From NCBI RefSeq assembly GCF_900094595.1, contig NZ_FMAD01000004.1, positions 372,001-436,000 of the forward strand: a stretch of 64,000 bases of DNA. The letters are read 5' to 3'. Positions 26,824 to 31,272 of the stretch are shown here, piece by piece (the stretch's first letter is position 1; each line of letters begins with the position of its first letter). Source of the stretch: Cupriavidus alkaliphilus (GTDB lineage Bacteria > Pseudomonadota > Gammaproteobacteria > Burkholderiales > Burkholderiaceae). The position numbers and the translations under genes were made by a program. The notes beneath the pieces were generated by a model. That model did no database searches. It was not told the DNA's origin and worked only from the letters and a program-made list of their open reading frames with translations.

Positions 26824-26860
26824 AAACCCCGGCATGTCGCCAGGCATGCCGGGGTTTTTT
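26824..26860 (+). terminator. Rho-independent terminator of the ABC operon
   Basis: A 13-base perfect stem, AAACCCCGGCATG with CATGCCGGGGTTT, closes on TCGCCAGG and is followed by a run of T. It lies 35 bases after the binding-protein stop. Confidence 0.9.
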
Positions 26861-26881: not shown

Positions 26882-29632
26882 CTAGCGGCGATCGCCGTCG
26901 CGGCCCTGGCGCGCTTCCATCTGGCCACGCTCCTGCTGCGCGCGTTGCTGCTGTTGCATCTGCCGCTGCTGGTCCATTTGCTGGCGCTGGCGCTCCTGCA
27001 TCTGCCGTTGCTGCTCGTGCATCTGCCGTTGCTGCTGTTCGGCCTGGCGCTGCATGGCCTGCTGGCGCTGCTGCTCATGCATCGCCCGCTGCTGTTCCTG
27101 CATCGCGCGTTGCTGTTCCTGCATATGGCGCTGCTGCTGTTCGGCCTGCCGCTGCATGGCCTGCTGGCGTTGCTGCTCCTGCATGGCCCGTTGCTGCTCC
27201 TGCATATGGCGCTGCTGCTCGGCCTGGCGCTGCATGGCCTGCTGCCGTTGCTGCTCCTGCGCCGCGCGCTGCTGGTCCTGCATCTGCCGCTGCTGATCCG
27301 CTTGCCGCTGCATGGCTTGCTGGCGCTGCTGCTCCTGCGCCGCGCGCTGCTGGTCCTGCATCTGGCGCTGCTGATCCGCTTGCCGCTGCATGGCCTGCTG
27401 TCGTTGCTGCTCCTGCGCCGCACGCTGCTGGTCCTGCATCTGCCGCTGCTGCTGTTCGGCCTGGCGCTGCTGCCCTTCCTCCCTCTGCCGCTGCTGCTCG
27501 AAGCGCTGGCGCTGCATTTCCTGCGATTGCCGGGCCGGATCGGGGCGCTCCTGACCATCGGCCCACTGGCGGGGCGGCATGCCCTGCTGGCGCTGCTCGT
27601 CCAGTTGCCGTTGCTGCTCGCGCAGGGCACGCTGCTGCTCGAAGCGCTGGCGCTGCATTTCCTGCGATTGCCGCGCCGGGTCGGGGCGCTCCTGACCATC
27701 GGCCCACTGGCGGGGCGGCATGCCCTGCTGGCGCTGCTCGTCCAGTTGCCGTTGCTGCTCGCGCAGGGCACGTTGCTGCTCGATCTGCTGGCGCTGCTGC
27801 TCACGCTGCATGGCCTGTTGCTGCCGCTGGGCATCCCCTGGCACGCCCGGCTGCCCGGCAAAGCCGCGCGCCTCGTCGGGCCGGGTGCTCTGGCCCCGCC
27901 CAGGGCCGCGCCAGGGCTCGCCCCGAGGCTGGGCATCGTTGCGATCCGCGCGGCCGTCGCCGTCGGCATCGATACGCCCGGGGCGCGGCTGGACTGGAGC
28001 GTGGTCGCGCGATGCGATCGCGGCCTGGCTCATGCGCACGTCCGGCACCGGCCGTGCGTCGCGGCCGGGCCGGCGCTCGTTGCCGCCGCGCCAGGCCGGG
28101 CCGGCACCGGGCACGACCCCGCCCTCGCGCGCAAAGCGCCGGGCCAGGTCGTCCGTGGCCGGTCGCCCGGGCGGGCGCGCGGCGATGGCCTGGCGTTCGA
28201 AGCCGTGGCGGGCCTGCGGCGGCAGCGGGCGCGGCGGCGCCGCGCCTACCAGGCTGCCCTTGACCGGCGCCACCGGCGGCGCGCCGTGGGCCTCGCCCGC
28301 CGGCACGTTGCGCCATTCGGGGCGGTGCAGGCCGCGCGCGGGGCGTCCTTCGACAAAGTTGCGCGCCGGCATGCCGGTGATGGCGCCGGGCACGGTGCGG
28401 TTGACGTAAGGCGGCGGGCGGCGGTCGCCCATCACGAAGTTGTTGACCGTAACCCGGTTGATGCGGGCGACGTAAGTCGGGCTGGCGCGATAGACCGGCC
28501 GGTAGGCATCGCGCGGACCCAGCGGATACCAGGCCACGCCCGGTCCGCTGCCGACGCGCACGCTCCAGTTGGGCCCGGCGGCGCCGACAAAGGCCACCAG
28601 CGCCGGGGCATAGCACGGGCGCACGCGCGGCCCGGGAACCCAGCCCCAGCGCGAGCCCACATAGGCCCAGCGGCCATAGTGCGAGGGCGCGAAGCCCCAC
28701 GGCGCGTCGTCGATCCAGGTCCAGCCCCACGGCGCGATCCAGGCCCAGTGGCCGGTGCTGTACGGCACCCATCCCGCGCTGACCGCGCGCGGGAACCAGA
28801 TCGCGCCGTAGCCCGGGTCTTCCTGCCAGTCGCCATAGCCGTCCAGCGCGGCGTAGCCCGGCATCTCGCGCGGCACGTAGCGCGCCGACTGCGAAGCATC
28901 CTCGCGCGCGTCGCGCGCCGCGGTCCAGCGATCGAACCCGTCTTCGGCCACCGGGCCGCCGCCTGCATCGGCCAGGTCGGTGCCGGCAAAGCGCATGCGG
29001 TCGCCGCGCTGCAGTTCGATGGTGCGGCTGTCGCCATAGACCACCGCGCTGCCATGGCGCAGCGTGACGGTGGTGGTGCTGCCGTCGGGCGCCACGTCCA
29101 GGCGGTAGTCGCCGGGCTCGCGCGGCACGAAGGCCAGGTTCGGGGTATCGACCTCGACCGTCTGGCCCGGCGGCAACGCGCGCACGCGCACCTGCAGCGT
29201 GCCCTGCGTCAGCTTGACCTGCGTGGTGCTGTCGTCGAGGTTCAGGATGCTGGCCGCGGTGGCGCCGCCCATGCGCAGCGCCACCGTGCCGGCGTGCAGC
29301 TCGGCGCGTCCGCCGGGTTCCAGCCAGAGCCGGTCGCCGGTGGTGACCGGCCGGTTCAGCCCGGCCGCGGCCCAGGCGTCCGAGCCGGCGGGGGCAAAGC
29401 TGAGGTTGCCGTCGACCGCGGTCAGCGTGGCGATGCGCGAGGAAGGATCGGCCTGCTGCTGCGCGGCGTCGGCCACCGGGGCATCGAGGTAGGGTTCGCC
29501 CGGCGCGCCGGGCACCTGCGCCAGTGCAGCAGCCGCCACTGCAAGGCCGGCTGCGGCCGCCAGCGCAGTCAGCACCATGCGGCCGCCAGGGCGGCCCGTA
29601 AAGCGGCCAGCGGATTGGAAAGAATCAGACAT
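26882..29632 (-). CDS. FecR/DUF6600-type secreted protein with Gln-rich repeat tail
   Basis: This protein of about 916 residues starts with a signal sequence (VLTALAAAAGLAVAAAALAQ). A FecR-like beta domain follows (about residues 60-210; VTTGDRLWLEPGG). Next comes a Trp-rich DUF6600-like region (APWGWTWIDDAPWGF; HYGRWAYVGSRWGWVPG). The last 300 residues are almost pure Gln/Arg/Glu/Met, likely coiled coil, made of 26- and 47-residue tandem repeats. The start before SDSFQSAGR lacks a clear ribosome-binding site. A surface or periplasmic scaffold role is plausible, but function is unknown. Confidence 0.8.
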   Translation of the reverse strand: MSDSFQSAGRFTGRPGGRMVLTALAAAAGLAVAAAALAQVPGAPGEPYLDAPVADAAQQQADPSSRIATLTAVDGNLSFAPAGSDAWAAAGLNRPVTTGDRLWLEPGGRAELHAGTVALRMGGATAASILNLDDSTTQVKLTQGTLQVRVRALPPGQTVEVDTPNLAFVPREPGDYRLDVAPDGSTTTVTLRHGSAVVYGDSRTIELQRGDRMRFAGTDLADAGGGPVAEDGFDRWTAARDAREDASQSARYVPREMPGYAALDGYGDWQEDPGYGAIWFPRAVSAGWVPYSTGHWAWIAPWGWTWIDDAPWGFAPSHYGRWAYVGSRWGWVPGPRVRPCYAPALVAFVGAAGPNWSVRVGSGPGVAWYPLGPRDAYRPVYRASPTYVARINRVTVNNFVMGDRRPPPYVNRTVPGAITGMPARNFVEGRPARGLHRPEWRNVPAGEAHGAPPVAPVKGSLVGAAPPRPLPPQARHGFERQAIAARPPGRPATDDLARRFAREGGVVPGAGPAWRGGNERRPGRDARPVPDVRMSQAAIASRDHAPVQPRPGRIDADGDGRADRNDAQPRGEPWRGPGRGQSTRPDEARGFAGQPGVPGDAQRQQQAMQREQQRQQIEQQRALREQQRQLDEQRQQGMPPRQWADGQERPDPARQSQEMQRQRFEQQRALREQQRQLDEQRQQGMPPRQWADGQERPDPARQSQEMQRQRFEQQRQREEGQQRQAEQQQRQMQDQQRAAQEQQRQQAMQRQADQQRQMQDQQRAAQEQQRQQAMQRQADQQRQMQDQQRAAQEQQRQQAMQRQAEQQRHMQEQQRAMQEQQRQQAMQRQAEQQQRHMQEQQRAMQEQQRAMHEQQRQQAMQRQAEQQQRQMHEQQRQMQERQRQQMDQQRQMQQQQRAQQERGQMEARQGRDGDRR
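27231..27464 (-). repeat. Three 78-bp tandem repeats coding the Gln-rich tail
   Basis: Units begin at 27231, 27309 and 27387 with TGCATGGC and have a 78-base period, coding a 26-residue unit built around QQAMQRQADQQRQMQDQQR. Differences between units are few. More degenerate copies extend leftwards to about 26940. Copy number is likely to vary between strains. Confidence 0.85.
27494..27781 (-). repeat. 141-bp tandem duplication in the same gene
   Basis: Two nearly identical 141-base units encode a 47-residue block with GMPPRQWADGQERPDPARQS. They differ at only a handful of bases, and 141 is a multiple of three, so the frame is kept. The near identity points to a recent duplication. Confidence 0.85.
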
Positions 29633-29916
29633 GGAAGGGAGGAGCGGGACCCGACACGGGTCGGCGGGCAGGCCGGCCCACGCCGGCGGCCACCCTATTG
29701 TCACCATACATGGCCCCGGGGTGCGGCGGCGCGTTCGGCGCGGCACAGTTTGTAAGCTCGTATTTCGCCCGGCGCCGGCGCCGGGCGGCGCGGCCGGTGC
29801 GCGCGGCAGGCTGCGGGCGGGCCGGCGGGCGACGCCGCCGTGGCCACGGCGGACCAGCCGTCAAAGGTGGAAACAACTTCGGTGCGCCGGACAGGCTGGC
29901 CCGGGCCGGATGCCGC

Positions 29917-31272
29917 TTAGCGGCCGGATTGCTGGCGCAGCATCTCGGTCAGCCGCTCGGCCGGCATCGGGCGCCCGTACAGGTAGCCCTGCGCCTCATG
30001 GCAGCCGTTGGCGAGCAGGAAGTCGCGCTGTTCGGGGGTTTCCACGCCTTCGGCCACCACGCCGATGTGCAGGCTGGCGCCCACGTTGATCACCGAGCGC
30101 ACGATGGCCGCGTCGACCGGGTCTACGGTCACGTTGCGGATAAAGGACTGGTCGATCTTGAGCCGGTCCACCGGGAACGACTTCAGGAAACTGAGCGAGG
30201 CATAGCCCGTGCCGAAGTCATCGCAGGTCAGCGTGATGCCGTCGCGGCGCAGCGCCTGCAGCTGGTCCGAGACTTCGTCGCCCTGCTGCAGGGCGATGGT
30301 CTCGGTGATCTCGATCTCAAGGCAGTCAGGCGCCAGCTCCAGCGCCCGCAGCACGTGGCGGACCTCGGTCAGCAGCCGGCTTTCGGAGAGCTGGGCCGCG
30401 AACAGGTTGATCGCCACCCGCGGCGGCCGCGGAAACGCCAGCGCCCAGGCACGGGCCTGGGCGCACGCAGTCTGCAGCAGCCACATGCCGACATCGCTGG
30501 CGATGCTGCTGCCGGCCAGCGCGTCGATGAACGCGGCCGGCGACAGCAGCCCGCGGGTGGGATGGCGCCAGCGCATCAGGGCCTCGGCGCCATGGACCCG
30601 GCCGTCGCGCAGGTCGACCTGCGGCTGGTACAGCAGCTCGAACTGGCGCTGTGCGTAGGCCTCGTGCAGGGCCTGCACCAGCGACAGCCGCGTGGTCACG
30701 TCCGAGCGCATCTGCGGCTTGAAGAAACGGATGGTGCGGCCGCCGTCGTGCTTGGCCCGGGCCAGCGCCAGGCTGGCCGCCGCCAGCATGTCCGAGGCCT
30801 GTTCGCCGGCCGCGGGCGCGACGCACGCGCCGATGCTGGCCAGCACGTGATGGCGGCGCCCGGCATGCTCGTGGGGAGAGGACAGCATCGACAGGATCGC
30901 GGCGCTGACATGGCGCACCAGCGTGGGATCGGCAATGGACGGCAGCAGCACGCTGAATTCGTCGCTGCCGATGCGGCCGATGATGGCGTCGCGGGGCGAG
31001 GCATCGCGCAGGCGCCGGGCCACGCGCTGCAGAATGACGTCGCCTTCGGCATGGCCATGCATGTCGTTGAAGGCGCGGAAGTCGTCAATGCCGATCAGCA
31101 GCAATGCACAGCGTGGCACAGCCTCGCTATGCAGGCGTGCCTCCAGCCGTTCCAGAAAGCCCTGGCGATTGTCAACGCCGGTCAGCGGATCGAGATCCGA
31201 GCCTGGCGAGGCGCCAGCCGACTTCGCCCCCGACTTGGCCACCATCCCTGCCCCATCTGTGATTGTCGACAT
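29917..31272 (-). CDS. GGDEF-EAL protein, probable c-di-GMP phosphodiesterase
   Basis: This 451-residue protein lacks transmembrane segments. The GGDEF domain (about residues 25-185) carries GSDEF at 102-106 instead of GGDEF and no RxxD inhibition site, so cyclase activity is doubtful. The EAL domain (about 195-445) keeps EAL at 230-232, the DDFGTGYASLSFL loop and KIDQSFI, so it should cleave c-di-GMP. It is divergent from the wsp operon across 227 bases and would balance the c-di-GMP made by WspR. That link is inferred from position. Confidence 0.9.
   Translation of the reverse strand: MSTITDGAGMVAKSGAKSAGASPGSDLDPLTGVDNRQGFLERLEARLHSEAVPRCALLLIGIDDFRAFNDMHGHAEGDVILQRVARRLRDASPRDAIIGRIGSDEFSVLLPSIADPTLVRHVSAAILSMLSSPHEHAGRRHHVLASIGACVAPAAGEQASDMLAAASLALARAKHDGGRTIRFFKPQMRSDVTTRLSLVQALHEAYAQRQFELLYQPQVDLRDGRVHGAEALMRWRHPTRGLLSPAAFIDALAGSSIASDVGMWLLQTACAQARAWALAFPRPPRVAINLFAAQLSESRLLTEVRHVLRALELAPDCLEIEITETIALQQGDEVSDQLQALRRDGITLTCDDFGTGYASLSFLKSFPVDRLKIDQSFIRNVTVDPVDAAIVRSVINVGASLHIGVVAEGVETPEQRDFLLANGCHEAQGYLYGRPMPAERLTEMLRQQSGR

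Follow-up and report, generated by a model that had tools for sequence, protein, structure and literature searches.

The 64,000-nucleotide stretch of Cupriavidus alkaliphilus DNA analysed here (the window) carries a gene for a 916-residue protein in which a signal-peptide-like start is followed by a FecR-like fold, a DUF6600 region, a linker and a long tail rich in Gln and Arg. The features of the locus are:

26824..26857, plus strand: terminator-like hairpin between the DUF6600 gene and a convergent ABC-transporter gene (2 such sites in the region against 1.5 expected in shuffles)
26882..29632, minus strand: coding sequence of the DUF6600 gene, 916 aa, with signal-peptide-like start, FecR-like fold, DUF6600, linker and Gln/Arg tail
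29519..29632, minus strand: predicted signal peptide, residues 1-38, from an ALA/Q cut site judged by eye and the N termini of relatives
28901..29449, minus strand: FecR-like periplasmic fold, residues 62-244 (strong matches at about 97-240), from the AlphaFold2 model and structure matches
28511..28852, minus strand: DUF6600 (PF20245), Trp-rich beta hairpins, residues 261-374, from Pfam and the AlphaFold2 model
27833..28372, minus strand: linker, residues 421-600, mostly predicted disordered (pLDDT mostly below 50)
26885..27832, minus strand: Gln/Arg-rich tail, residues 601-916, with 269 of 316 residues predicted helical
29917..31272, minus strand: GGDEF-EAL protein gene, directly upstream and on the same strand in all 14 named Cupriavidus loci (13 distinct)

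The reading frame runs on the minus strand from an ATG at 29632 to a stop at 26882-26884, with an alternative GTG start possible at 29746. Its N-terminal segment is the sole strongly hydrophobic stretch of the protein, no second transmembrane-like window was found beyond it, and since the single cysteine is residue 340 the protein is without a lipobox. Secretion, which a sequence-only reading of this DNA had proposed, is thus upheld as a predicted export signal, given the hydrophobic N-terminal segment, its ALA-Q end as judged by eye and a fold of the periplasmic kind. The same reading had called the product a FecR/DUF6600 protein, and we agree on both counts: PF20245 matches residues 261-374 (E 1.1e-24, 86.9 bits against a curated cut-off of 27), the only DUF6600 match in the window genome, and although the FecR Pfam model PF04773 had no match in the window protein at E 0.1, its FecR identity is clear by fold. 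On the plus strand a 936-residue antisense open frame (26945-29755) runs through the whole gene, and high GC together with codon choice probably accounts for it.

An AlphaFold2 model of residues 39-415 (43 sequences, mean pLDDT 78) is beta-rich in its first part and places three hairpins in the Trp-rich DUF6600 region. The modelled first part matches the periplasmic domain of PupR (6ovk_R, Z 16.3 over 137 residues, rmsd 3.0) and that of a putative Parabacteroides anti-sigma factor (4m0n, Z 15.1), and the two matches with E below 0.001 in a viral structure search were both phage ‘FecR protein’ models. The N-terminal part also resembles 5ix9, a ‘cell surface anchoring domain’ presumably from a Marinomonas adhesin, but this is only a lead, as its Z of 6.3 lies below 8 and may reflect no more than a common arrangement. 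For DUF6600, a part that the comparison barely probed, no fold match appeared among solved structures, and the sequence search of solved structures returned one irrelevant match (E 0.22). Pfam assigns DUF6600 no function, and we found no mention of it in the open PMC literature. FecR-type anti-sigma regulators typically have a partner sigma factor gene nearby. The window protein shares the fold of the FecR/PupR periplasmic signalling domain at residues ~97-240, but it lacks the cytoplasmic anti-sigma part and has DUF6600 and the tail after the fold; ahead of the fold we found no cytoplasmic anti-sigma domain with transmembrane helix, only the signal-peptide-like segment and a short stretch. 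The 16 sigma-70 region 2 matches in the genome include none on the window’s contig, and the six neighbouring window genes are other than sigma-factor genes. With neither an anti-sigma part nor a sigma-factor gene on the contig, we rejected a FecR-type anti-sigma regulator.

The tail makes up the last 34% of the protein, and its 316 residues include 132 Gln (42%), 56 Arg, 30 Glu, 30 Ala and 23 Met; it is 32% charged with a net charge of +12, contains Arg and no Lys, and uses CAG for 111 of its 316 codons. Repeats of 26 and 47 residues (78 and 141 bases) had been reported in this last third, and we recovered two 47-mers and four 26-mers:

27632..27772, minus strand: 47-residue repeat copy 1, residues 621-667 (Tandem Repeats Finder and sequence)
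27491..27631, minus strand: 47-residue repeat copy 2, residues 668-714, its RQWADGQ module doubled only here among 27 genomes
27374..27451, minus strand: 26-residue unit 1, from residue 728 (sequence)
27296..27373, minus strand: 26-residue unit 2, from residue 754 (sequence)
27218..27295, minus strand: 26-residue unit 3, from residue 780 (sequence)
27140..27217, minus strand: 26-residue unit 4, from residue 806, more diverged (sequence)

As had also been claimed, the repeats keep frame, so that growth proceeds in in-frame steps. The two 47-residue copies are identical apart from 2 of 141 bases, where both changes are synonymous and at third positions. Between any two of the 26-residue units 1-3 there are 5-7 synonymous and 0-1 non-synonymous codon differences, so that in these units the protein sequence is held while the DNA drifts. 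Tandem Repeats Finder reported arrays of period 141 (score 576), 78 (score 506) and 21 (score 230), the last a loose one of 28 copies with 65% matches, together with further overlapping periods. Because of this loose 21-bp array, and because period 7 is among the top four residue periods in all 31 genus tails, we take the base unit to be 7 residues (21 bp) and the 78- and 141-bp repeats to be higher-order units.

We found the head and linker in 52 of 60 genus genomes, and Gln-rich tails are common to the genus. Seven of the genomes have heads identical to those in named Cupriavidus records, in line with the genus being Cupriavidus. In two genomes (G029 and G052) the head frame has two in-frame TGA stops, pointing to possible pseudogenes or sequencing errors. 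Thirty of the 52 matching loci were fetched and 27 gave complete tails; G057 (L036) and G009 (L154) were added outside those 30, the tail of G009 staying outside the tail analyses. The genus counts for hydrophobic period, charge pairs and length leave out L021 (contig end) and L029 (N run), and those for hydrophobic period and length also L030 (N run), which is not listed for charge pairs; one sequence set lost 7 of 50 (L082, L105, L125, L127, L129, L134 and L135), with a stop codon in one. Over the 27 species with complete tails the head measures 451-458 residues (CV 0.004) against 259-424 for the tail (CV 0.131), and among ten close species tail length differs in 45/45 pairs, while head length differs in nine, by one residue. 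The predicted change in length is therefore borne out between species. Within species the sole fetched pair with readable tails, C. metallidurans CH34 and FDAARGOS_675, is identical over 13 kb, and the recorded source of the latter, a zinc factory pond, suggests that both are one strain; for C. campinensis there are two records, of which L070 stops before the tail. In some draft assemblies the contig ends ahead of the tail (L070, L021) or the tail contains N runs (L029, L030), so that tail length may be misjudged in such genomes. Of 27 genomes, only that of the window carries two copies of the RQWADGQ module of the 47-mer; 17 have a single copy and nine have none, and because of this the 141-bp duplication looks recent, with assembly error possible in a draft of 34 contigs. 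Over the 45 pairs the head has a pN/pS of 0.116 and the tail one of 0.146, the latter approximate as misaligned repeat units inflate pS, and from these codon comparisons we could show that the amino acids of the tail are under constraint.

The tail had been read as a Gln/Arg coiled coil, and it is here that our results depart from the earlier claim. In a classical coiled coil, hydrophobic residues are expected every 3.5 residues. A hydrophobic period of 3.4-3.8 beat shuffles (25 or fewer of 500 shuffles as strong) in just 3 of 31 genus tails, and that of the window tail was matched by 433 of 500 shuffles; we therefore rejected a hydrophobic coiled coil as the leading reading. What the tails carry instead is a charge ladder, in which acid-to-base +3 and base-to-acid +4 pairs are enriched 3.3- to 6.9-fold over expectation in 28/28 genus tails (31 and 29 such pairs in the window tail against 7.7 expected), whereas charge pairs at spacings 1, 2 and 5 are for the most part no commoner than expected and those in reverse order (acid-to-base +4, base-to-acid +3) range from far below to about 1.7 times expected. 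The power of the charged-residue period was reached by 0 of 200 shuffles in genus tails, with the best period in the window clade at 3.40-3.49, the edge of the band. According to PMC5347031, the two enriched spacings are favoured in designed single alpha-helices (SAHs), and the charge ladder fits a single or polar helix better than a hydrophobic coiled coil. An AlphaFold2 model of the tail (27 orthologues) contains helices of 37, 31, 93 and 109 residues with pLDDT mostly 75-90 inside and lower at the ends, at an overall mean pLDDT of 62.5 and pTM of 0.25; of the three helix breaks, two lie within the Pro/Trp portion of the 47-mers and the third elsewhere. Sequences of this kind are readily modelled as helix, which weighs against this model.

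Beyond the genus, DUF6600 was found in 123 of 200 sampled genomes of the host’s taxonomic family and in 11 of 299 of the phylum, and the named matches include Acidobacteriota and Gemmatimonadota MAGs. Among 57 diverse members, some of them end-cut, DUF6600 was present in 57/57 (E 0.001) and FecR PF04773 in 14/57, and Pfam found no domain after DUF6600 and no anchor, adhesin, TolA or TonB domain. DUF6600 proteins resemble the window protein in the sequence and order of the head and in having a tail that varies beyond DUF6600, but the Cupriavidus tail is Gln/Arg/Glu-rich and proline-poor whereas 75 of 125 family rows are proline-rich. When 100 tails (named records and other genera of the host family) were scored for P+G in their least P/G-rich 120-residue window, the count was at most 4 in 21, between 5 and 14 in 12, and at least 15 in 67. 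When a tree was built from 125 heads (48 with P/G-poor tails, at most 4; 75 proline-rich, at least 12; 2 between; some genomes twice), a quick tree with several long branches and without a shuffled-label control, tails were seen to change between P/G-poor and proline-rich at a minimum of seven points, the P/G-poor class being by itself no proof of helix. All 38 Cupriavidus rows are P/G-poor and group as a single clade (SH-aLRT 100). The tree leaves out L030, L082, L103, L125 and L130 as well as rows whose tails are short or masked, and for L091 and L101 the rows in the tail-type counts and tree are the second DUF6600 gene of the locus. Such a second DUF6600 frame downstream, perhaps a tandem paralogue, was seen at L091:5940-7772, L101:12263-14281, L103:12019-13797 and L125:11977-13743, and two other lineages (L152 and L146) have Gln-rich tails of their own, that of L146 preceded by a proline-rich stretch. 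As a group, the P/G-poor tails are the longer ones (p 3e-8, kinship ignored), with median lengths after the head of 513 in Cupriavidus, 410 in other P/G-poor rows and 431 in proline-rich rows, a comparison that further leaves out cut rows and seven same-genome duplicates. A constant-reach periplasmic ruler was dropped, since these lengths lack the two-fold ratio expected for helix versus polyproline.

We consider the best explanation, at a little under an even chance, to be that the protein is exported, probably to the periplasm, and that its folded FecR-like and DUF6600 head carries the C-terminal tail as a long, polar and length-plastic spacer. The 7-residue [DE]QQRxxQ-type unit would set its acid-to-base +3 and base-to-acid +4 pairs along one face, and the tail should therefore form long alpha-helices without a hydrophobic seam, near to SAH domains. 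At the alpha-helix rise of 0.15 nm per residue the tail would be ~40 nm long if the predicted helices are real, its reach would be altered by in-frame gain or loss of repeat units, and the Trp-rich head may bind an envelope ligand. In favour of this reading we count the nearly constant head beside a tail of changing length, the charge ladder with its lack of a hydrophobic period in most tails, the predicted helices, the low pN/pS of the tail, the finding of DUF6600 and FecR as the only Pfam domains in the family, and the swaps of tail type, which have a counterpart in TolA/TonB spacer domains (PMC12204202). As in SAH domains, the tail has these charge pairs, no hydrophobic seam and a long predicted helix, but at 42% Gln and 32% charged it is not made mainly of charged residues, and it has Arg and no Lys. 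By this analogy a monomeric SAH is doubtful, because designs that were Arg-rich or less charged oligomerised or aggregated (PMC5347031), and the tail has much Arg and Gln and no more than 32% charged residues. Also against an SAH-like spacer, the charge period of the window clade lies at the edge of the band, and the charge ladder may be no more than the legacy of a single ancestral 7-residue unit. Spacers normally join two domains, and judged by Pfam nothing recognisable follows the tail in the 57 members.

A rather more speculative possibility, which we put forward tentatively, is an unrecognised class of bacterial envelope protein. In it a conserved FecR-fold/DUF6600 head would sit on a physically tuned mast that has repeatedly switched material, between an ion-paired Gln/Glu/Arg helix, an Ala/Lys/Glu helix and a proline-rich chain, and that owes its length to in-frame repeats. 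Such proteins would parallel the TolA/TonB spacers without being related to them. TolA/TonB domain II likewise provides long, length-variable envelope spacers that swap between helical and proline-rich forms across lineages, as described in PMC12204202, but the window protein lacks their inner-membrane anchor helix and C-terminal domain, and its tail lies at the far end. A fixed head with charge-kept tails that vary from 259 to 424 residues offers a natural series for testing reach against charge and stiffness under selection, and if the spacer reading is true the tail would count as a Gln-rich candidate single alpha-helix from bacteria.

A Gln-rich coiled coil, in which tails dimerise or trimerise via core Gln to form an envelope fibre, would accommodate the period of 7 seen in all 31 genus tails, the long predicted helices and the oligomerisation of less charged designed helices (reported in PMC5347031); we think it rather unlikely, as the hydrophobic helical-band period rises above shuffles in so few tails and the heptad phase is broken by 26- and 25-residue units in several species. 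The tail looks more like a long charge-stabilised spacer helix than an ordinary coiled coil, and the coiled-coil idea should be replaced by that of a charge-laddered helix of any oligomeric state. If instead the head does all the work and the tail is a loosely selected low-complexity brush made by replication slippage in CAG-rich DNA, the abundance of CAG, the lineage-specific doubling of the 47-mer and the swaps of tail type across the family would follow readily; this is unlikely, however, in view of the excess of synonymous differences between units 1-3, a tail pN/pS near that of the head and a charge ladder kept in every one of the 28 tails.

We consider it quite improbable that the protein is a secreted adhesin or matrix protein whose basic tail binds anionic polysaccharide or DNA. 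The net charge of +12 would suit such a role, a FecR-domain protein (putative kin only) is among the L. pneumophila type II secretion candidates in PMC12239567, and the leptospiral adhesin Lsa19 model shows weak similarity in 19 of 57 members; the window protein, however, scores 20.6 against a 250-bit cut-off, none of the 57 has a Pfam anchor or adhesin domain, and three single-member NCBIfam matches to adhesin or TraG models look like low-complexity matches. The adhesin reading could also enlist the GGDEF-EAL and VpsR-domain neighbours, though the neighbouring genes vary between lineages. In Cupriavidus a chemotaxis-receptor gene lies beyond the upstream GGDEF-EAL gene in 13 of 14 named loci, and a gene for a branched-chain amino-acid-type periplasmic binding protein lies downstream in 13 of 14 (~1.3 kb off in two), whereas Burkholderia relatives have different neighbours, including a VpsR-domain regulator (a cluster of 13 non-Cupriavidus loci, identified from a domain scan of one member). 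These neighbours hint at c-di-GMP signalling, yet as they vary by lineage we take no proof from them. On a Legionella adelaidensis plasmid (L145:1477-8331) the DUF6600 gene lies beside two alpha-amylase-family genes.
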